Part shown: positions 6,218 to 59,214 of the stretch, one piece after another
How the letters are laid out: each line of letters starts with the position of its first letter
Position numbering within the stretch: the first letter of the stretch is position 1
NCBI GenBank assembly: GCA_027943245.1
Contig: JANDJZ010000016.1
Location: forward strand, 62,001 to 126,000
Direction of reading: 5' to 3'
DNA length: 64,000 nucleotides
Origin: Acanthamoeba sp. SK_2022b
Taxonomy: Eukaryota; Discosea; Longamoebia; Acanthamoebidae
The notes under the pieces: generated by a model
What the model was told of the DNA's origin: nothing
The model's database searches: none
Seen by the model: only the letters and a program-made list of their open reading frames with translations
Program-made: the position numbers and the translations under genes

Positions 6218-9025
6218 ATGGAAGCATCTGAGGAGGCACTACCAATGAGTGTCCTCAACATCAACAACTTGCCTGGTACCTAACTCGCCCCGTGATTCCG
6301 GGACCGACGAATCTTCACTGTGATCAGTTGAACATCCTGACTCATCTCCTCCAACGCTGCCCGCCACAATCAACATGAAGATGAGACGCTGTTGGCAGTG
6401 ATGCAGTGTCTGTCCCCGCACGACCTGCTGACGGCCGAGCTGGTGTGCCAGCGGTGGCGCGGCGTGGCCACCGACCACAAGGTTCTGTGGCGGGCGCACT
6501 TTGAGAGCTCGCCCTTCTCGCGCTGGTGGACACCCTACCGCCCCTCGCACGACTTTGCTGCGCTCAAGGGTACACCCCTTCTCCTTCCTTCTTCTCTGCT
6601 TTGAGTGGCAAGGCCCTGACGACCGTTTCCTGCTGCGACATGTAGCGACCAACCGACCGAAGAAGATCGACTACAAGTGGGAGTACCTCACCAAGAGCAG
6701 ATGCACGGAGCTCTGGCTCAAGTTTGCGTCGTTTCGTCGCGTTAGCCGTGGCGTACGTCTCTGAACCTGTCCCCTTTGGCCGCGCTATCGCTCTCTCATC
6801 GCCCGCCCCTCCCGCACACGCAATGGCGCGCCTCGTCGGCCAGCTACGAGATCACGGCGACGACTACGGCGCCGTCGTCAAGTGGTCGCGTAACGAAAGC
6901 GCCACAGGCGGCCTGGGCCCGGTGCGTGCCGCTTATCCCTCTCTTTATGATAATGTTCTCCCCCCTATCAACTTCGGTCAATGGCTTACACGGCGTGGTC
7001 TCCATTTCTCCGCTTGTCCCAGGACCGCATCGCCATCCGTGCTGTCCTCGTGGGCGGAGGCAGCGTTGGATGCCACACGCTATCATCGGCGCTGGGCAAG
7101 TATGTCTCTCCAGCAATCGCAGGCCAGTTATGGTCAGCGCGCTCACCTGATGAAACACACACACACAGGCTCTTCCCGGGGGCGTGCATCTCGCTGGACC
7201 AGGGAATGGACGTGCTGACGAATCCGCTGTCGCGCGTCCAACTAGTCATCACGCGCGATGAGGAGGTCGAGGCCGAGGCGCTGCTCGCCTACAGGCGCGA
7301 GGTGGCCGGGACGCCCTTCACCTTTGGCCCGCTGCCACTCGAGGTGGAGCTCGAGGTGGCCGACATTTGTACCGTGTCCCCCCCCGCTCTCCCCCCTCTA
7401 CTCGCGGCGCATCTACTCACGCCCAGGGCGTGTCGTTCGCGTCGGGCGCAGTTTCGGTGGAGGGCCGAAACGAGCTGGTCCGGAACGAACTGTTCGAGAG
7501 CGTGAGGCCGACGGTGGTGCTGGCCGCCTTCTCGCTCGAGAACTTTCGATCGTTCAACGAACTTCGCGAAAAGGTGCGGCCACCGCCGATCCCGAGTCGA
7601 GTGCGTGGGTAGCGGCAGCGGCTCACGCTGGGCCTGTTGCTCGAGCAGGTGTTGCCCGCGGTGCGCTCGCGGCTCAACGATCTGCCCATCCTGCTGGTGG
7701 GCACCAAGTCGGATACGAGGCAGGGCAGCGGCGTCCCCGACGCCATCGATTCCTTCTTCCGCGTCAGCACCGCCAGTCCCGACTACCGCCAGGTGCGCTC
7801 CCCCCCCCCCTCCCTCTCCCTTTCCGTCCACCAAACCCGAGAACTCGCGCGCACGGGTTTCAGCCTGGCTCACCTACCGACACAAACGCGCCCAACATCA
7901 ACAGGGACTGGAGCTCGCCTACGAGGTTGGCGCCAAAAACTACGTCGAGTGTTCGATCCTGACCCGCGAGGGGCTCGGCGCCGTGCTGAGCGAAACCGCC
8001 GAGCTCGGTACGCGTGTGCTCCGCAAGCTCGAGTCATGCTCGGTGACACCGGCGGGCCTGCTGCTGGCTCGAGTGGGTTGTGTGATGTGCTCTCGGCTGA
8101 CCCCACCCAACCGACGTACGTTCGCGATGCGCGCAGGCGTGCGGCACATGTTGCAGTTTTTCGGGCGGGGCCTGGAGAACAGGCCCCACGGCCTGCAATG
8201 GGAGGGCGAGGGCCAGACCGAAGTACACGAGACCATACGCTGCAATGGATGCGGGGTACGCCCCCCCCTCCAAAACCCAATGCTGTCTGCCAAGTGTTCT
8301 CTGGACGCGTCCTGATCTCCGTTGGCTGCTCAGGTGGCGCCGGTAGTGGGGAATTGCTACAAGTGCGATACGTGTCCCGACTACCATCTGTGCGAGGCGT
8401 GCCGTCGGAGCAAGGATCACAGCCCCAATCACACTTTCAAGCTCTGGCACACCAAAAAGAAGCGGCGCGTCAAGAGGTACGTCGAGCCGAGAGGCGCCGT
8501 CCCCGTCACCGGCCCTTCTGCTCTCGTTCGTGCGTGGCGCGCTGACACCCACACGCGTGCAGGCACACGCATCGGACGACGTCGTTTCGTGAGGGCTTCC
8601 GTCACCGAAGCTCGTTCACCGAAGAGGAAGAGGAAGAGGGGGCAGATGGGGAGGCAAGTGCGGGAGGCGGCGAGGAGGAGACGACTCCGGAGGGGTCACT
8701 CTCCGCCATGATGCAGGAGGCGGAGACCCAGGGCAGGAAGGCGGCCGCGGAAGAGGTGCGGCGGGAGAAAGAGGAGATCAGGAAGAAGGGGAGCGAGTCC
8801 TTCCAGAAGACGGGGCTGGGCGACAGCTGGAAGGAGAGCGTGGAGGACATCTTCCGCATGTTCTCTAAATCGCCCGAGTCCCAGGCCAAGCGCAAACGCG
8901 CATCCTCTTCTTCCGATGGAGACGATCTCGCGCCAACCACCATGACGACGAGTGCCACAACACCGCTTGCACAGCCTTCATCTTCTTCAAGCCCTATCAC
9001 CATCAAAAAGGCACGAACAGGATAG
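6218..9025 (+). CDS. F-box / Rho-like pseudo-GTPase / ZZ zinc-finger protein
   Basis: Joined exons give one frame from ATG 6218 to TAG 9023-9025. The N-terminus is an F-box (LPDETLLAVMQCLSPHDLL, then VCQRWR). Next is a Rho-family fold: VLVGGGSVGCHTL sits at the P-loop, VVLAAFSLENFRSFNELRE and LPILLVGTKSDTR match the Rho core and G4, and YVECSILTREGL matches G5. The P-loop lacks the GKT/S lysine (GC-H instead), no DTAGQE-like G3 is seen, and switch I has no clear threonine. Then comes a ZZ-type finger (CNGCG, CYKCDTCPDYHLCEAC, and HSPNH). An acidic, then basic, helical tail ends in a KK-rich segment. The F-box suggests an SCF ubiquitin-ligase adaptor; the pseudo-GTPase and ZZ would recruit substrates. 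The 3' end faces the next gene with only 46 bp between stop codons. Confidence 0.8.
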
Positions 9026-9071: not shown

Positions 9072-12000
9072 TCAGTAGTAGCGAGTCCACCCAAAGACGC
9101 CGCGCGGGGCCATCTCCGGGACGAACTTGGTGAGACGCTGCCACATGACCGGCGAGACGCCGTCGTAGACCATGCCGCCCACCTGCTGGATCCTCTCGGG
9201 AATCGCCCAGCGCAGGCACCGTAGGAAACGGGCCTTCTGGCCTGCAATGACGCATGCCAAGGTCAATAACACAACAACTCAAGAGCCTTTCACAGGCAAT
9301 GAGTTACCCAGTAGAGGCGCGAAGTTGATGACGAACGGCACCAGCACAGCCCACCTTTCGGCCGAAGTAGACTCCCAAATCCGCCTTGTCTAAAGATAAC
9401 AACAGCAAGCATTATTTGATTGATTAGTAAAGCGTAACTTGGGTACACAACGGTGGAGCTCGTACCAGCTTGCGAGTGATCTTGGGGCTGAAGTACTTCT
9501 TGGGGACATGGTTGACGTAGAGCTCTTCGTACTCCAAGTGCTCGATCAGGTGCTCGATCAAGGTGGGCATCATCTTCTTGAGATCTTGAACAGCCTGCAG
9601 CCACTAGGTCAGCGCAAACGCAAATGTGCGCGAGTGCACCCATCAGCGCACGTTTGATTTCGCGCTTCCGTCCCCCACCAGTAGGCTGTCCACAGCCGCC
9701 GCGGCTTCGTTCAGTTCGTGCTCGCCCTCGGTGTGTTCCTATGCAACGCACGCGCTAAGAAAACACCAACTCTGGCACACACATAGGCACAAGTCCTCGG
9801 ATTGGAGTACCTTGGTGACGAAGCGGCAGTAGCCGGGGAAGTAGCCGTTGATGAAGGGGTAGAGGATCTGCTCCTCGTGGTGGGAGTGCTCAGCGTGCAT
9901 CATCTGGACGGTCTTGAATATCCTCACGAAGCGCACGATGCTCTTCTCGTCGTCCGCATCCAGGAAGCGGCCATACCTACCATCACAAAGTTGCCCTGCC
10001 GTTTAGATACGCTCTTTCGCGGCGTGATGGCGTGATGGCAGACCGTTCCAATTTTTTGGCAGCGCCGCGTAGAGCAAAGTGGATGATCTTCATGAAGGAG
10101 AGCGGGCCCCACTTCTCGTTGGGCACGAACAGGTCGGCCCTCTTTTGGAGAAGCACGAGGGTGTGGAGGGTGCACATGGCCACCACGAATGTAACAAGGA
10201 TCAGCGACATCCAGCTGAGCGCCTTGAGCAGGCCTGACTCGACGAGCTGGTAGTAGTCCATCGTCACCACCGATAACGTGGCCAGCGGGAACGTGTAGCC
10301 CCAATAGCTCATCTCGAACCTTCATTGGAGCCCAATCATCCATCATAAGCATCATCATCGAAGCACGCGAATAGAGTGACTGACCTGTTACGACCAAAGT
10401 AGTGGTGAAGCGTCATGTAGGCCAGCACCAAGAAGGTGCCCACCGCTGCGAAGTACAGCATCCTAACGTGCAGGCCGACGAGAAAAGGCGGTGAGTAGAC
10501 ATAGGGAAAGAGGCTTGCTCTTGACTCAGGGGAGAGGCGGAGTGGGGATTGGGAAGCCTACCGTGGGTAGTAGTCCAGAGCCCATGGATCGCAGTGACAG
10601 TTGGCGGCCTTAATGGCGACGTAGGAGCTGCAGGCCACCGAGATGGCCGCCAGCCAGACGAACAGCGATGACGTCAACCTGTCGTCTGTTGGCGCGCATG
10701 CATGATACAAAAACGCACGGTGTCAGGCTACTGCGTGGGCTGATAGGGGATGAGGCTTACGATTTACCCAAGGCCTCACGCGTAGTGACCCGAAAGATTG
10801 ACATAACGAAGAGCGGGATCCAATAGAGGATCGCGAAGCCATACCACAGCCAAGCGACCTGGCATGTGACCACACAATGTGCCAGTCAACGTGGGAGATA
10901 GCTGGCGGGGAGAGCCAAGACAGAGAGAATCGCAGGGTGGCCGTACCTCGTCGTAGCCGTCGTCGAGCCTGGGGGCCACCAGTGCAGCGACGAGGTTGCC
11001 CACAACAGGTATCATCCAGTTGGGGTTGATAGTTTCGATGTAGTGGGGCACGAGCATCCAGCGCGAGACCGCGATCACGCCCAAGAGCAGCTGGACTGGC
11101 GCGGAGATCCACTGGAACCATTCCCCACTCGTAAATTCGCAGCATCAGGTAAACCATGTCACGTGAGGAGCAGCGTACAAACAACACTTTGGCCAGGTCG
11201 TTGTGGTCGCTCTCGATCAGGAACGAGAGCAGCAAAATGTTGAGCGTCACTGCCGAGAAGAACGGGCCCTGAACTGTAACATGGTGGCGTCAAGTTGGGT
11301 AAGCCCAAGCTGCGCAGGAGAAAAGCTGAATTGGAGAAGGGGCTTCGGCAAGGGGAGCAGTACTGGGGCAGTCCCACTCCGACAAGACCTTCCGCGGGTA
11401 GAGGAACATCTTGACGACGTAGACGGCGGCCAACAGGACAAACAGGGCCGCGCCGGCAATACCGAAGGTCGCCCACCAGCCCTTGGCAGGGCCCACGAAC
11501 ACGGCGTCGCACACGCACCTTGGCGAAATTGGAAGTGGCCAGCGGTAAGGCGGCGCCAACAACACGCTTTGTGGGCTCAAGAGTGTACCACGCGACGGCC
11601 ATGCCCAAGATGCCCATTGGGACACCCATGTAGGTGATCTTCATGTTCCGGATCGGGTTCCATTCATAGCGGATCATCTCCTCCGTGTGCGGAGTACCAA
11701 AGGCCGCGCGCCTTTCGTGCAGCCTGTACCGCCATCACGAACAAGTGAGTCCCACTCACAGACAAGCCCACCGTGTGGCCGGAGGGAGAGGGAGAGAGAG
11801 AAAGAGGGGGAGGGAAGCGTACAGGCGGCCGTCGTTATGTTCAAAGTTCCCAAGCTCCTGCTCCTTACTTATGAGGTTGATGATCTGCTTGACCTCCTTC
11901 TCCCTGAATTTTGGCTCGAACCTGACCTGCTTCTTGCCGTCGAGCAACTTGCCCTGCCAGATACGCTGGCCGAGCGAGCGGTCAGCCTTGTTGCCGCGCT

Positions 12001-13008
12001 TCAAGTCCTCGCTCTCCAGATCGGACCAGCCTTCCTCCTCCTGCCCCTCGTCGTCGTTACCCACGTCCTTGCCCTTCCCGTCGCGGTTCTTCTCGTCCAT
12101 CTCCTTGTCGTCCCTGCCGGCCTTCGACTTGGCCTCGGGGGCGCCACCGTGGGAGTTGTCGAACAGAACGAACACCTTGAACGGCGGACATTTCTTAAAG
12201 GGCGACGAGGTCAGGGCGAGCAGGACCAGCAAGCCATGAAGAGACGACATGCGATACCTCGCAGAGCCAGGAGAAGACGGTGGAGCCTATGGGCCACGAG
12301 CGTTCCTCGTTGAGGGCCTCCTCCATCTCCTCCACGGAATCTTCACAGAGGTCGAACACTCGATGGCTGAGCAGCTTCAGCTTGACCGCCATGGAGAACA
12401 TCGTACAACCAGCACAAAATCCAAATACGCCCTGCGCACCACGCAAGAGCGGCCATCAGCCAACGAGAAGGCAGCGGCTACGGGATGGGGAGGCGTGCCT
12501 CCAGGCCGGCGGCTACGGCCAGGGCGCCAAGGATGACCTGGCCCGTGATGACAAAGCCCTCGCCGTTTCCCGCGCCATACTTGTCCTCGTTGCCCACAAA
12601 GAGGAAGAGCGTGGCGAGACCAGAGAACATTATGCCGCACAGAGCAGCGAACTGCTTGGGAGGACCGGGGACCATATCCCTCCTGAAGTAATACGAGAAC
12701 AGCTCGGCGATCGTGCCTTGAATAGAAGCTCTTCCCCCTGCAAACAGTCTGTTGGTTCGAAAGCGATTTAGATGGAGTAGATGTAGATTTTGAACGATGA
12801 ACAAGCATGTACTAGGTTTTTACCTGAGGATGAAGTCGGCACACATGCCAGCGATGGCATAGCGCATGATCTCATTGTGGCGGAAGATGATGCCTAAAAT
12901 ACTCACGGCAACCACCTGCAAAGCTGTGAAGCGAGCGTTGACCGAGTTGACGTTGGCCGGAAACCAAAAGAGCGGGCCGCTCCACATCTTAGGGCTGCGA
13001 CACAACAT
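9072..13008 (-). CDS. DUF4395 / TehA-SLAC1-type transporter / hemerythrin fusion protein
   Basis: Exons on the minus strand read, from the N-terminus: a DUF4395-type membrane region (VNSVNARFTALQVVAVSILG, and FGFCAGCTMF). An acidic linker (GNDDEGQEEEGWSD) follows, then a tellurite-resistance/C4-dicarboxylate (TDT, SLAC1/TehA) core with MGVPMGILGMAVAWY, CPIQGPFFSAVTLNILLLS, NPNWMIPVVGNLVAALVAP and SYWGYTFPLATLSVV. After that comes a hemerythrin-like four-helix bundle (MHAEHSHHEEQILYPFI, GEHELNEA, HLIEHLEYEE) with the H, HxxxE and HxxxE iron ligands in place. The C-terminus ends GVFGWTRYY before TGA (9072-9074). TDT proteins move small anions; hemerythrin binds O2 or NO through a di-iron centre. 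The start at 13008 is the first in-frame ATG and is uncertain. One intron (about 38 nt near 11500) is very short. A split into two genes near 12250 cannot be excluded. Confidence 0.75.
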
Positions 13009-13182
13009 CCCGCAAGGAGGGTTACACACAGCTGCTCCCTGCAGCACGATGTGCTGAGAGAACTGAGAACTGTGAAGCTTTCCTTAAGTTGGCGAACTAA
13101 AGACCTAATTGAGGCAAAGTTACCATCTTGAAAAGGGAGCAAAAAAAAAAAAAAAAACAAAAAGATCGCCCTGCTCAACAAA

Positions 13183-13246
13183 CTGGCCAACACCTACGAG
13201 GTCAAATCCGCAGCCAAGCTGGCCAACACCTACGAGGTCAAATCCG
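13183..13246. repeat. 28-bp sequence repeated with 36-bp period
   Basis: Positions 13183-13210 and 13219-13246 are identical (starting CTGGCCAACACC), separated by 8 bp. A 36-bp period keeps reading frame. It sits close to a run of 17 A residues. Confidence 0.8.
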
Positions 13247-13390
13247 AAAGTCTTTCTTTGAAAGCAATGAAGAGCGAGTGTGACAAAGAGGGTGTTGTTG
13301 GACCAGCTGGCAGAAACAACCATCTTCTGGATGCCACGAGTTGGCCGTTGCTTACACTGCGAGTAGGTATCTTCAAAAGGAAATTGGGCA

Positions 13391-13413
13391 ATTTGTGGCC
13401 AATAGAAACATTT
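13391..13413 (+). promoter_or_regulatory. CCAAT-containing upstream element of oxygenase A
   Basis: The 23 bases here, including TGGCCAATAGAAACATTT, are identical to 57778-57800 upstream of oxygenase C. They lie 85 bp before the start codon here and 97 bp before it there. Surrounding upstream sequence is not conserved, which suggests a retained promoter element, although it could also be leftover duplicated sequence. Confidence 0.45.
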
Positions 13414-13498
13414 AAACAAAACGACAAATCGCCCGGACGGGCCTGCTCCTTCTGGCGCTCGTAGTGTCGATACGCTATAATCACACTCACCAAGGAAC

Positions 13499-14822
13499 AT
13501 GACCACACGCGAGGGAGGCCTGGAGTCGGTGGTGTCGCTGGAGGCGCTGCTGAGGTTGGTGAAGGAGAGCCCCGGCGCGCAGGCGATGGAGAAGGTTGCC
13601 GCGCTCCTCCGCGCTCACCCGTACGCCAGCGCCGCCACGCTAGTCGCTCTCGCCGGGACGTGGTCCCTGTACGAGGCGTATGTTCGCGGGCCGGCCAGCC
13701 GCCGGCAGCGGCAGCTGGAGAAGCGCAGGGCGCGCGTCAACATCGACTCGCCCCTCGGCCTTGGTTTCAAGTCCTGCCCTGAGGTACATTTTTTTCCCAC
13801 CCATTTTTTGTAGTATTGAATAAACAAAAATATCAATGTGCAGACAGTCGAAGCAATTGAGCTGGAGGTCGAAGGCGAGATCCCGCAGTGGCTCGCGGGG
13901 AAGCTCTTCCGCTCGGGTCCCGGCACGTTCGAGGTGGACACGAAGCTGGGCTTCGCCTACCTCATCACCCACTGGTTCGATGGCCTCACGGTAGACTTCT
14001 CGCCTTCATTTAAACGGTGGTGGTGCTCCGGGCAGCGACATGTGCTTTCTTCTCACCTTCCGTGCGTGCGCGTGTGCGACCAGGTGATGCACGGGTTCGA
14101 AATCAAGGACGGCCGCGTGTTCTACGCCAACCGGAAGGCCGCGCGCGAATTGGAGAACTACATCGCTCGCCACGGCGAGTATGCTCTCATGCCCCTCAGC
14201 CTCATCACCCTGGCGCAACTGGCCGGCCGCGCATGACGCGGTTTCCCACACGTGTGGGCCTTGGGTGGGACAGGGAGTATTTCTCGTTCGGCCCCGACCC
14301 TTGCAAGACGTTCTTCAACAAGCTGTCGTCTCTCTTCTTCAGGTGGCCCCATCTTCCCCGCTGCGCTCCACCTCCCAGTCTCAACCACCCTCCTTCTCCA
14401 TGCGGCCATTCGTTGTGGCTGAACCGAATCCTGTTCTCTCCACTCGTCCACAGTTCCGACGCCAAGGACCCCGAGACCGGCAGGGACATCAACAACACGG
14501 GAGTGACCATCAAACGCATTCGAGGTCTCATTCCCATTCTATGTTGATGGCTACCATGTGCGTGGTGGAACATCAACTCGTGGTCCTGACGTGTGCTGCT
14601 GCTTTTGCTGCTGCTGCTGCACAGGAACGCTGTACAACTGCACCGACGCCAACTCGTTGGTGAGCTTCGATCCGCAGACACTGGTCACGAGCGGCAAACA
14701 GGAACGCTTTGCCAAGTTTAACCCCAGCATCAAGGGGCCCCTCTCTACGGCTCACGGCCAGTATGACGCCACGCGCGGTGAATACGTGCGCATTGTCTCG
14801 CCGCACTCGCCCACACAACACA

Positions 14823-55063: not shown

Positions 55064-57767
55064 ATGGAGTCGGTGAACGGTGGACTGCGTGAGCGGGTTG
55101 CGGTGACTGCTGCAGCCCTGGGCAATCCATTTGTAAAGTCGCTGTGGGCGCGGGTGGAGGCGCTGGTGCGGAACCACCCCTACGTGGCCGGAGCAGCCAC
55201 ACTTACCGCGGTGGCCGGGGTGTGGGCCATCCACGAGGCCTACGTCGTCGGTCCGGCCCTGCGCAAGCGCAGAGAGCAGGAGAAGCGCGTGGCTCGCGCC
55301 CACGCCGACTCCCCCTTCGCCGTTGGATTTAGGAATTGTCCCGAGGTAACGTCGATTATTGTGATTATTTGTAAGAATTTCATTTTATTTATTTTTCTTA
55401 TTTTATACGCTGCCGCAGACGGTGGAGGCGATCGAGTTGTCAGTCGAGGGCGAGATCCCACAGTGGCTCGCGGGGAAGCTCTTCCGCTCGGGTCCCGGCA
55501 CGCTCGAGGTGGCGACCGAGCTGGGCTTCAACTACCTCGTCAACCACTGGTTCGATGGTCTCACGGTAAGCTTCCTTCCACCTCGCGCACACTCACGCGC
55601 CGCCGCGCCCTGACGTTATGCTTCGGCGTGCGCGCGCAGATGATGCACGGGTTCGAGATCAAGGGCGGCCGCGTGTTCTACGCCAACCAGAAGGCCGCGC
55701 GCGAGTTGGAGAACTACATCGCGCGACACGGCGGGTATCTAGACTTCACCACCGGAGACGGTGATCTGCCCGCTTTTGGAGTGTTGAATGAAGCTCATAG
55801 GTTAAGGGACGTCTCTGCAGAGACTTCATCACATTTGGCGCCGATCCATGCAAGTCCATGTTCGACAAGCTCTCCTCTGCCTTCGCGATACAGTGCGTGC
55901 CTTTCCGACTTGAGTGGCCGGCCACCATTCAATCCTCACACACAGGCACGCCGGTTGTCGCCAATAACAGGCCACCGGTTGATCCGCAAACGGGAGGCGA
56001 CGCCGTCAACATCGGCGTTACCGTCAAGCGAATACAAGGTGCGTGCTCCCGCTGACGACTGAGAAAACAAAGTCTGAAAGAGCGCACCGTTCACTCAACA
56101 CACACAACACAACACAACACAACACAAAACACAACTGCAGGCAAGCTCTACAACCAGACGGATGCCAACATGCTGATGCCGTTTGACCCACAATCGTTGA
56201 AGACCACTGGCAAGCGGGAGACCTTTGAGCAATTCGACAAGAGATTGAAGGGCCCCTTCTCAAGCGCGCACGGCCAATACGACGCCAAGCGCAAGGAATA
56301 CGTGCGTGCCTCCCTCCCCCGGCGATAGGTCCTTTATCGAATGCTATAGTGTTTCTCGCCTCGCCTCAACGCCGCTCATCTAGGTCAACTACGTTTGCGA
56401 CATCGGAGTTCCGGAAGCCACCTACACAGTGTTCGCCATTCCGGATGAGGGCGAGACGCGCGTGTTGTGCAGCTTCAAGGCCCCCAAGATCTCCTACATG
56501 CACTCGTTCGCGCTCACGGAGAACTACTTCGTTCTGCAGGTACTGACTCCCCCACCGAACGTTGGACAGCAACGTTTTAGTTGGCCGGGTGGTTTACTGA
56601 TTGGTGAGTTGTCGCTGGACCGACCAGGCGTGGCCTCTGTACATAAACGCCCCCAAGCTGCTGTGGCACAAGGCCGTGGTCGAAGCCATGAGCTGGAACG
56701 GCGACGACAGCGCCAAGTGAGGCCTTCCTCCTCCGCCGCCGCTTGTTGCTGTGTTGGCTTTGGCGGTCCTGAGCTCACCCGGACAGCTGCGACCATGACC
56801 CAGGTTTTATGTGGTGGACCGCAACACGGGTGAGCTGGTCCACATCTACGAGACACCGGCGGCCTTCTGCTTTCACAACATTAACGCTTGGGAAGAAGAC
56901 GAAGGTGGCCTCTTTTTTTTCCTTACTTTTTGTTTGTGTTTGTGTTTGTGTTTGTGTTTGTGTTTGTGTTTGTGTTTGTGTTTGTGTTTGTGTTTGTGTT
57001 TGTTTTTCTTACTAATCTTCGCGCTACGCACACGCAGGCAACAAGATAGTGATGGATCTGACGCTGTACGATGACAGCTCGCTCATCGACGACCTGCTGC
57101 TCGACCGTATTCTCTCGGCTACGCCCAAATACGAGCGGGGTGCGCTGGTGAGATTCACGCTCGACAACGTGCACGCCGAGCAGCCCAAGACCTGTGCGAA
57201 GCAGGTCGTCTACGCCAACACCGTTGAGCTGCCTCGAATCAACGTCGGTTGGCACATGAAGCCGCACACCTACGTCTACGGCATGTCGATGTCCGAGACT
57301 GACACGTCGTTCCTTGACCGCATCATCAAGTTCAACGCCCGTACGGGCGAGAAGTCGGTGTGGATGGCGGAGGGCCTCTACCCCGCCGAGCCCATTTTCA
57401 TCACCTCGCCCGACGCCACCGAAGAAGACGACGGCGTGCTCCTCAGGTATCCTCCACACGCGTGCGTGCTCGGTGACAATGTAGTTCACCAGAAGACTGA
57501 CTGCGCGCTGGCGTGCGGGGTAGCATCGTGTTGAGCGGGGCGACGGCCAAGAGCTTCTTGCTGGTCCTCGACGCGAAGGACATGAGCGAGATCGCGCGTG
57601 CGCACGTGCCCCACCACATCCCGTTCGGCTTCCACGGTGCGGATGATCATGCTACTCCCGACCCCACCAATCGGTCAATTCTTCTTTCACAGGAAGTGCT
57701 AAGTGTTGTGTTCTACGTCTTGCCAACAGGTAACTTCTTCGGCGATACGACATCTGACATGGCCTGA
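55064..57767 (+). CDS. Carotenoid oxygenase B, membrane-anchored
   Basis: Start [20 protein letters not shown] is followed by a hydrophobic helix ([20 protein letters not shown]) and basic residues, as in copies A and C. The core has [83 protein letters not shown] and [14 protein letters not shown], holding the four iron-binding histidines. Exon borders match those of A and C, but coding sequence has diverged markedly and introns are unrelated. The C-terminus is shorter and differs (GDTTSDMA versus GEQENSDVM). A hexanucleotide tract lies in one intron (56931-57004). The stop TGA lies 130 bp before the start codon of copy C, so B and C form a tandem pair. Confidence 0.87.
56931..57004. repeat. 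(TTTGTG)n hexanucleotide repeat in intron
   Basis: About twelve units of TTTGTG lie inside an intron of oxygenase B between the INAWEED exon and the next. Confidence 0.95.
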
Positions 57768-57777
57768 CTCTACGGGC

Positions 57778-57800
57778 ATTTGTGGCCAATAGAAACATTT
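57778..57800 (+). promoter_or_regulatory. CCAAT-containing upstream element of oxygenase C
   Basis: Identical over 23 bases to 13391-13413. It begins only 10 bp after the stop codon of oxygenase B, so the whole promoter of copy C fits into 130 bp. Confidence 0.45.
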
Positions 57801-57897
57801 TGTAACATGACGCACCAATAGAGCGTTTTCGATTAACACATACAAAAGGCTTGCCCGCGCTCTTCGTGTCACAACACGCTCTCTTCACCAAGCAACA

Positions 57898-59214
57898 ATG
57901 ACCACACGCGAGGGAGGCCTGGAGTCGGTGGTGCCGCTGGAGGCGCTGCTGAGGTTGGTGAAGGAGAGCCCCGGCGCGCAGGCGATGGAGAAGGTTGCCG
58001 CGCTCCTCCGCGCTCACCCCTACGCCAGCGCCGCCACGCTGGTCGCACTCGCCGGGACGTGGTCCCTGTACGAGGCGTATGTTCGCGGGCCGGCCCACCG
58101 CCGGCAGCGGCAGCTGGAGAAGCGCAGGGCGCGCGTCAACATCGACTCGCCCCTCGGCCTTGGTTTCAAGTCCTGCCCTGAGGTCGTTTCTTTTTTTTCA
58201 TCAATGTTTTCTAAAATTTAGGAAATAATTAACAAAAATATCACTGTGCAGACAGTCGAAGCAATTGAGCTGGAGGTCGAAGGTGAGATCCCGCAGTGGC
58301 TCGCGGGGAAGCTCTTCCGCTCGGGTCCCGGCACGCTCGAGGTGGACACGAAGCTGGGCTTCGACTACCTCATCACCCACTGGTTCGATGGCCTCACGGT
58401 AGACTTTTCCTTCCACCTTACGCGTTCATTTTGAAACGGTGCTCCGGGCAGCGATATGTGCTTTCTCTTCTCACCTTCCGTGCGTGCGCGTGTGCGATCA
58501 GGTGATGCACGGGTTCGAGATCAAGGACGGCCGCGTGTTCTACGCCAACCGGAAGGCCGCGCGCGAATTGGAGAACTACATCGCTCGCCACGGCGGGTAT
58601 GCTCTCATGCCCCTCAGCCTCATCACCCTTGCGCAACCGGCCGCGCATGACGCGGTTTCCCACACATGTGGGCCTTGGGTGGGACAGGGAGTATTTCTCG
58701 TTCGGCCCCGACCCTTGCAAGACGTTCTTCAACAAGCTGTCGTCTCTCTTCTTCAGGTGGCTCCACCTTCCCCACTGCGCTCCACCTCCCAGTCTCAACC
58801 ACCCTCCTTCTCCATGCGGCCATTCGTTGTGGCTGAACCGATTCCTCTTCTCTTCACTCGTCCACAGCTCCGATGGCAAGGACCCCGAGACCGGCAGGGA
58901 CATCAACAACACGGGAGTGACCATCAAACGCATTCGAGGTCTCATTCCCATTTTGTGTTGATGGCCATCATGTGCTTGGTGAACATCAACTCGTGATCCT
59001 GACACGTGTGCTGCTGCTGCACAGGGACGCTGTACAACTGCACCGACGCCAACTCGTTGGTGAGCTTCGATCCGCAGACGCTGGTCACGAGCGGCAAACA
59101 GGAACGCTTTGCCAAGTTTAACCCCGAAATCCAGGGACCCCTCTCCGCGGCTCACGGCCAGTACGACGCCACGCGCGGTGAATACGTGCGCATTGTCTTC
59201 CGCACGCGCGCACA

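Follow-up and report, generated by a model that had tools for sequence, protein, structure and literature searches.

Gene organization at the locus

The window analyzed here, a 64,000-nucleotide stretch of an Acanthamoeba sp. SK_2022b contig, carries on its minus strand a single spliced reading frame running from 13008 to 9072, with 17 exons, a coding sequence of 2733 nt, a predicted product of 910 amino acids, and a TGA stop codon at 9074 to 9072. The minus strand was translated in three frames from 13300 to 9000, exons were joined by splice sites and frame, and the model was corrected with the sequence of P0001, which at 86% identity is the closest relative of the window protein among the matches listed. 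An earlier note on this DNA had placed DUF4395, TDT (SLAC1/TehA-type), and hemerythrin regions in that order within one gene, and the 17-exon model together with Pfam recovers all three, in the same order and in one frame, between 13008 and 9072.

The 16 introns are 57 to 99 bases each, and 15 of them are GT-AG. The sole non-GT donor is that of intron 2 (12498 to 12432), which we read as GC-AG because the VAAGLE motif is conserved: an in-frame GT donor near the GC donor at 12498 would remove VAAGLE, in which A134, A135, L137, and E138 (A2 numbering of the family alignment) are nearly invariant. The GC donor is also kept in a near-identical copy on contig C124. There are two candidate start codons, at 13008 and 12987, and the N terminus of the relative P0003 agrees better with 12987.

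DUF4395 begins in exon 1 (13008 to 12824, including the alternative ATG), continues through exon 2 (12748 to 12499) with a GPPKQFA motif, and ends in exon 3 (12431 to 12258) with a CxGC motif formed by C151 (12416 to 12414) and C154 (12407 to 12405); the two motifs are placed by conservation as well as by the splice model. Exon 4 (12193 to 11823) codes for a charged linker between DUF4395 and the TDT core, and much of the corresponding part of P0001 is modeled with pLDDT under 50. On the splice model, the TDT core starts in exon 5 (11723 to 11589) and extends through exons 6 (11518 to 11364), 7 (11273 to 11179), 8 (11111 to 10947, with NPNWMIPVVGNLV), 9 (10858 to 10768), 10 (10685 to 10562), and 11 (10462 to 10385). 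Exon 12 (10319 to 10044) holds, from the model and alignments, the final TDT helices with the gate phenylalanine F618 (10291 to 10289), the junction KWGPLSFMK, and the first hemerythrin ligand, H688 (10081 to 10079). The TDT/hemerythrin boundary is thus not an exon boundary, since F618 and H688 lie in the same exon.

The rest of the bundle is assigned from the model and conservation, with helix 2 in exon 13 (9976 to 9811; H730 at 9888 to 9886, E734 at 9876 to 9874), helix 3 in exon 14 (9738 to 9652; H757 at 9735 to 9733, and E761 at the variable seventh position), and helix 4 in exon 15 (9594 to 9466; H803 at 9540 to 9538, E807, and E808). A C-terminal helical extension follows in exon 16 (9389 to 9308), as judged from the splice model and the predicted structure of a relative, and in exon 17 (9241 to 9072), where the family alignment marks PERIQQ...PRG.GW.RYY before the stop.

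Several features of the surroundings were also recorded. Between the stop codon and a convergent frame, which ends at 9025, lie 46 bases, and one of five adjoining window frames was named by Pfam (RPE65). A copy of window positions 11364 to 14487 lies at the end of contig C124 of the same genome and differs at 5 of 1847 and 7 of 1273 bases. It is probably the second allele or a segment duplicated in the assembly. A further, more distant TDT frame with 22% identity is present on contig C315.

Domain content

Pfam reports DUF4395 (PF14340) at an E value of 7.1e-20 and 72.1 bits (cut-off, 24.5) and, in the corrected model, SLAC1 (PF03595) at 1.2e-38 and 133.5 bits (cut-off, 27.9), covering profile positions 1 to 331 of 331, so that these two assignments of the earlier note hold in an HMM search of the joined protein. 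The third, hemerythrin (PF01814), has an E value of 1.5e-4, but its 22.7 bits are below the curated cut-off of 25.3. Among 17 relatives (see below), matches above the cut-off are found for SLAC1 in all 17, DUF4395 in 15, hemerythrin in 11, and glutaredoxin in 10. With E values up to 1, SLAC1, DUF4395, and hemerythrin are the only Pfam matches of the window protein, with no F-box or RING ubiquitin-ligase part.

The TDT core fits the ten-helix SLAC1/TehA fold. All 16 solved structures matched by the whole protein in sequence are SLAH/SLAC1 or TehA chains, and the nearest are the SLAH3 and SLAC1 channels. F618 aligns with position 450 of AtSLAC1, counted in the structure-match alignment, whose phenylalanine we take to be the pore gate; it is kept in all 18 sequences (window and relatives). 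Phosphorylation controls SLAC1-type channels in plants, and no SLAC1, SLAH, or TehA member is known to have a hemerythrin or DUF4395 part. The window protein differs from these PF03595 proteins in that its last channel helix continues into a hemerythrin bundle through a fixed junction.

Relatives of the fused protein

A set of 5.8 billion proteins was searched three times, with about 8000 candidates scored per search. At least 17 relatives were recovered, a lower bound that gives no measure of how common the family is. Named sources are the red alga Porphyridium purpureum, Chlamydomonas sp. UWO 241, the green alga Micractinium conductrix, and the amoebozoan Balamuthia mandrillaris. Most of the relatives are unnamed in the database; the others appear as 'S-type anion channel SLAH3', 'C4-dicarboxylate ABC transporter', or 'Glutaredoxin domain-containing protein', and the name of P0004 is a string of three domain names. 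The earlier note knew of no described protein with this set of domains, and, judged by title and opening of the abstract, we found no paper on the DUF4395-TDT-hemerythrin set in the open-licence literature, an absence that is weak evidence, but at least 17 relatives were already in sequence databases. In that literature, DUF4395 occurs in two papers and hemerythrin together with SLAC1 in two others, which on the same criterion are unrelated. The main text of PMC3509319 nowhere uses the word 'fusion'. No fusion was found in prokaryote genomes, where 116 stretches matched and the one relative is a stand-alone Saprospiraceae hemerythrin, and a comparison of viral contigs with the family alignment gave 26 stretches that matched a pattern and no relatives.

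The relatives bear directly on whether one gene is present. P0002 combines most of DUF4395, the linker, TDT, and hemerythrin in one protein of 877 amino acids on a 2731-base contig, with 53 to 56% identity to the window protein. P0003 (916 amino acids on a 2874-base contig) has DUF4395 and TDT together and aligns with 31% identity across 99% of the query, so the frame cannot be put down to accidental assembly. Both contigs barely exceed the coding region, which suggests that they are transcripts; the database is silent on their origin. The DUF4395-TDT join in the window rests on splice sites, frame, and these relatives. With the TDT/hemerythrin boundary inside exon 12 and the fusion recurring in relatives, the proposal of one gene carrying three modules is upheld, and we regard it as practically certain that the product is one protein with DUF4395-TDT-hemerythrin architecture.

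The glutaredoxin of 10 of the 17 relatives is N-terminal, and nine carry a CPFC, CPFS, or CPFT motif. It is lacking in the window gene: none was seen by eye upstream, at 13009 to 13500, and Pfam found none in the window model or in four minus-strand frames at 12820 to 13736. The relatives with no glutaredoxin match are P0001, P0002, P0003, P0005, P0014, P0015, and P0017. Because P0005 starts within the glutaredoxin-aligned part and P0001, P0002, and P0017 start within later parts, the N termini of these four may be missing. P0015, from Balamuthia, is the protein named for a glutaredoxin domain in spite of having no such Pfam match, and it ends right after the first hemerythrin helix.

The gate phenylalanine and the first hemerythrin ligand are 69 to 70 residues apart in all 18 sequences. 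The distance from CxGC to the start of TDT varies, in contrast, from 74 to 211 residues in the 16 sequences with both. The junction (residues 669 to 695) is closer in identity to the window than is the hemerythrin part (696 to 823) in 17 of 17 rows. With the spacing fixed, the linker variable, and the junction better conserved than the bundle, the alignments suggest that channel and bundle are mechanically coupled.

The hemerythrin-like bundle

Oxygen-carrying hemerythrins use seven ligands, to which helix 3 contributes an HxxxH motif and helix 4 an HxxxxD motif. The window bundle carries the pattern H-HxxxE-H-HxxxE (H688, H730..E734, H757, H803..E807), with E761 replacing the second histidine of helix 3, and HLEYEE (HxxxEE) in helix 4. 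This is the six-residue pattern reported for plant BRUTUS in PMC12022348. Excluding the short records P0015 and P0017, the full pattern is present in 15 of 16 sequences; H688, H730, E734, H757, E807, and E808 are kept in all 16, and H803 in 15 (phenylalanine in P0016). The histidine and HxxxE ligands that the earlier note saw in the window recur across the family. Position 761, the seventh in O2-carrying hemerythrins, is histidine in eight of the 16, glutamate in four (window, P0001, P0012, and P0013), and isoleucine, arginine, valine, or leucine in four.

A family hemerythrin profile was built from 12 of the 16 segments and L003, omitting P0001, P0005, P0008, and P0016, the last of which lacks a ligand. 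Alignment A5 does not include P0017. Against the PDB it gave 19 matches at E values up to 1, including FBXL5 (the best solved relative), ScdA, and YtfE; there is no O2-carrying hemerythrin among these 19, a result that does not argue against kinship. The model of P0006 had no hemerythrin among its 50 matches listed, which carries no weight.

The bundle is, as judged by its residues, of the six-ligand 'hemerythrin-like' kind (FBXL5, BRUTUS, and YtfE) and not of the O2-carrying kind, and it would bind di-iron. Since it is of the six-ligand kind, sensing of iron or an oxidant appears likelier than O2 binding, and NO is possible. Iron-sensing hemerythrin-like domains occur on ubiquitin ligases, as in FBXL5 and HRZ/BRUTUS; in the window protein, the partners of the domain are instead an anion channel and a conserved helical extension. 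YtfE and ScdA are soluble, stand-alone proteins. These di-iron repair (RIC) proteins share the bundle class (profile E value of about 1e-5) but, unlike the window protein, have no channel. An algal TlpA selenoprotein resembles the window protein in that a thioredoxin-fold TlpA and hemerythrin are combined in one algal protein, and differs in that no channel and no DUF4395 are mentioned in the available part of its description (PMC7539508).

DUF4395 proteins and their bacterial neighbors

The FCAGC of the window DUF4395 is typical of the family, in which CxGC is present in 15 of the 16 sequences with the region (P0001 and P0017 not being counted), P0011 has CFCC, and both cysteines are kept in all 16. 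L003 comes from a Saprospiraceae genome, and in its phylum, Bacteroidota, DUF4395 has 74 matches in 64 of 198 genomes. We drew 59 of these, from 52 genomes, as regions reaching at most about 3 kb to either side, leaving out 15. The comparison set was 41 control regions drawn from the same collection of genomes, including L082, which is away from a DUF4395 locus.

A homoserine-sulfhydrylase-like gene is present in 36 of the 59 regions, with the nearest match on the same strand in 33 and within 400 bases in 29. CysK is present in 24, rhodanese in six, and thioredoxin in three, and at least one of the four is in 37 of 59, against 0 of 41 controls for each. The neighbor queries were taken from loci among the 59, and without the 19 loci viewed beforehand the counts are 29 of 40 for the sulfhydrylase, 23 of 40 for CysK, and 30 of 40 for any. 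Many of these genomes are apparently related, so the regions are not independent events. The association is confined to the short DUF4395 subtype (37 of 45, versus 0 of 14 for the long subtype). NCBIfam supports the L020 sulfhydrylase (O-acetylhomoserine/O-acetylserine sulfhydrylase) and the L010 cysteine synthase (cysteine synthase A) above cut-off, places the L004 sulfhydrylase, the rhodanese, and the thioredoxin below it, and names no family for two bacterial DUF4395 proteins.

The statement in the earlier note that bacterial DUF4395 genes lie near redox genes is borne out as an association with sulfur- and thiol-related genes in the bacteria surveyed. The bacterial PF14340 proteins have the same domain and C-x-x-C pair as the window protein, with the short subtype beside sulfide-assimilation genes. 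They differ in being small (about 140 to 240 amino acids in the 20 loci read) and in adjoining neither TDT nor hemerythrin: no TDT, hemerythrin, or glutaredoxin of the family's kind lies within about 3 kb in any of the 59 regions. The DUF4395 part gave no match among plasmids.

Discussion

The most likely reading of this locus is a small-anion channel with its gate coupled to an iron- or redox-responsive di-iron domain, although as a full explanation we consider it about evenly balanced. Architecture, gate, ligands, and junction are read from the sequence and the models of relatives, and gating, substrate, and iron binding are inferred. The membrane protein consists of DUF4395 with its CxGC pair, a SLAC1/TehA core, the fixed junction, a hemerythrin-like bundle, and the helical extension. 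Both of its ends would be cytosolic, and the bundle would hang from the last channel helix on the cytosolic side. A change in the iron loading or oxidation state of the bundle (through Fe2+ availability, O2, or H2O2) would open or close the pore, by shifting that helix and so setting conductance. The DUF4395 cysteines, glutaredoxin where present, and glutathione may reduce the site or pass on thiol or sulfane equivalents. That the hemerythrin-like domain is an iron or redox regulator of the channel has a little less than an even chance, in our estimate; the fixed junction length strengthens the case that it would act on the gate. The gas- or redox-gated transporter of the earlier note is partly supported, with its hemerythrin likelier to sense iron or an oxidant than to bind O2. 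The TDT family includes the fungal sulfite exporter SSU1, and with this and the sulfur neighbors of bacterial DUF4395 in mind, sulfite or a related sulfur anion is the leading guess for the small permeant anion, albeit one that we think is probably wrong.

Other readings of the locus have to be weighed against a gated channel. That two or three neighboring same-strand genes were misread as one by accident is extremely improbable, even though the model is drawn from genomic DNA only of this organism and P0001, its closest relative, begins after the DUF4395 part: TDT and hemerythrin have an exon in common, and single proteins on record from distant lineages, such as P0002, keep the same order. 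Separate genes were rejected on the boundary within exon 12 and the same fusion in relatives. If a hemerythrin of O2-carrier type bound O2 or NO and so controlled the anion transporter, the His/Glu ligands would fit, and BRUTUS-type centers do react with O2 (PMC12022348); nonetheless this reading is very unlikely, as histidine occupies the seventh position in just half of the sequences and is replaced by glutamate in the window, helix 4 has HxxxEE rather than the HxxxxD of O2 carriers, and the 19 PDB matches at E values up to 1 include no O2 carrier, which does not speak against kinship.

Two further readings concern what the di-iron domain does, and we judge each to be unlikely. The domain could be an iron-dependent stability switch that folds with iron and without it sends the whole channel to degradation, as for FBXL5, the best solved relative by profile, which is stabilized by iron binding according to PMC12022348; a degron, however, would need neither a fixed gate spacing of 69 to 70 residues nor a conserved KWGPLSFMK junction. 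The protein could also be a metabolic unit with no gated channel, in which DUF4395 and glutaredoxin would handle sulfane or thiol groups, TDT would transport sulfite or some other sulfur anion, and an enzymatic di-iron domain would carry out peroxide, NO, or sulfur chemistry in the same pathway. The sulfhydrylase, CysK, rhodanese, or thioredoxin neighbors of DUF4395 (37 of 59, controls 0 of 41), the glutaredoxin motifs of nine relatives, and the existence of SSU1 favor such a unit, but no TDT, hemerythrin, or glutaredoxin of the family's kind was found within about 3 kb of bacterial DUF4395 in the 59 regions, the window gene has no glutaredoxin, and the nearest TDT structures by sequence are the SLAH3 and SLAC1 channels.

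Each part of the protein is known; what is new is the fusion of an iron-sensor-like regulator to a SLAC1/TDT channel, a set present in databases under partial names. That red and green algae share this set suggests a type of channel, controlled by iron or redox state, that has yet to be described. A more ambitious and improbable proposal is a scattered eukaryotic family of amoebae and of red and green algae in which an FBXL5/BRUTUS-type di-iron sensor would be rigidly coupled to the helix that bears the gate, while glutaredoxin and DUF4395 would form a thiol relay at the other end, so that one protein would link iron or oxidant status to sulfur-anion flux. If true, a sensor domain continuing from the channel would be a new tie between ion flow and iron or oxidant status, and the sulfur-gene neighborhood of bacterial DUF4395 provides a functional lead for an uncharacterized domain.

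The locus and its copy

The gene for the DUF4395-TDT-hemerythrin protein lies between two genes on the plus strand. Its divergent neighbor (window 13481-14487) has a carotenoid-oxygenase (RPE65) match in the Pfam scan, and stretches paralogous to this neighbor, with 79 to 93% identity, are present at window 55415-58901 (55.4 to 58.9 kb). The convergent neighbor, at about 6954-9025, resembles, when read by eye, a GTPase-like region with a ZZ-type zinc finger (CYKCDTCPDYHLCEACRR) after it; a scan of three frames other than the zinc-finger one gave no Pfam match. A near-identical copy of window 11364-14487 is present elsewhere in the same genome (contig C124:46106-49193) and ends where that contig ends; it is probably either an allele or a repeated piece of the assembly. 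Upstream of the main gene is a direct repeat of 32 bases with a spacing of 36 (window 13179-13246), and the repeat is single in the C124 copy because 36 bases are absent at this site.

The modules in other settings

Elsewhere in this genome, a single open frame of 340 aa (contig C315:248147-249046) is TDT-like, with 22% identity to the TDT part of the main protein, and there are three further hemerythrin matches above the Pfam cut-off, in other genes on contigs C309, C205, and C665. The relative P0016 has every module, yet the hemerythrin ligand H803 is replaced by Phe and most of the hemerythrin Pfam score is gone; this natural variant is useful for the question of whether metal is needed. 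Among bacterial loci drawn around DUF4395 genes (L024-L083), the short type neighbors sulfide-assimilation genes (homoserine sulfhydrylase, CysK, rhodanese, or thioredoxin) in 37 of 45 loci, and the long type, with its CPG.C motif, is beside them in 0 of 14. The sulfide-assimilation neighbors of the short type provide a functional lead for a domain that has so far been uncharacterized.
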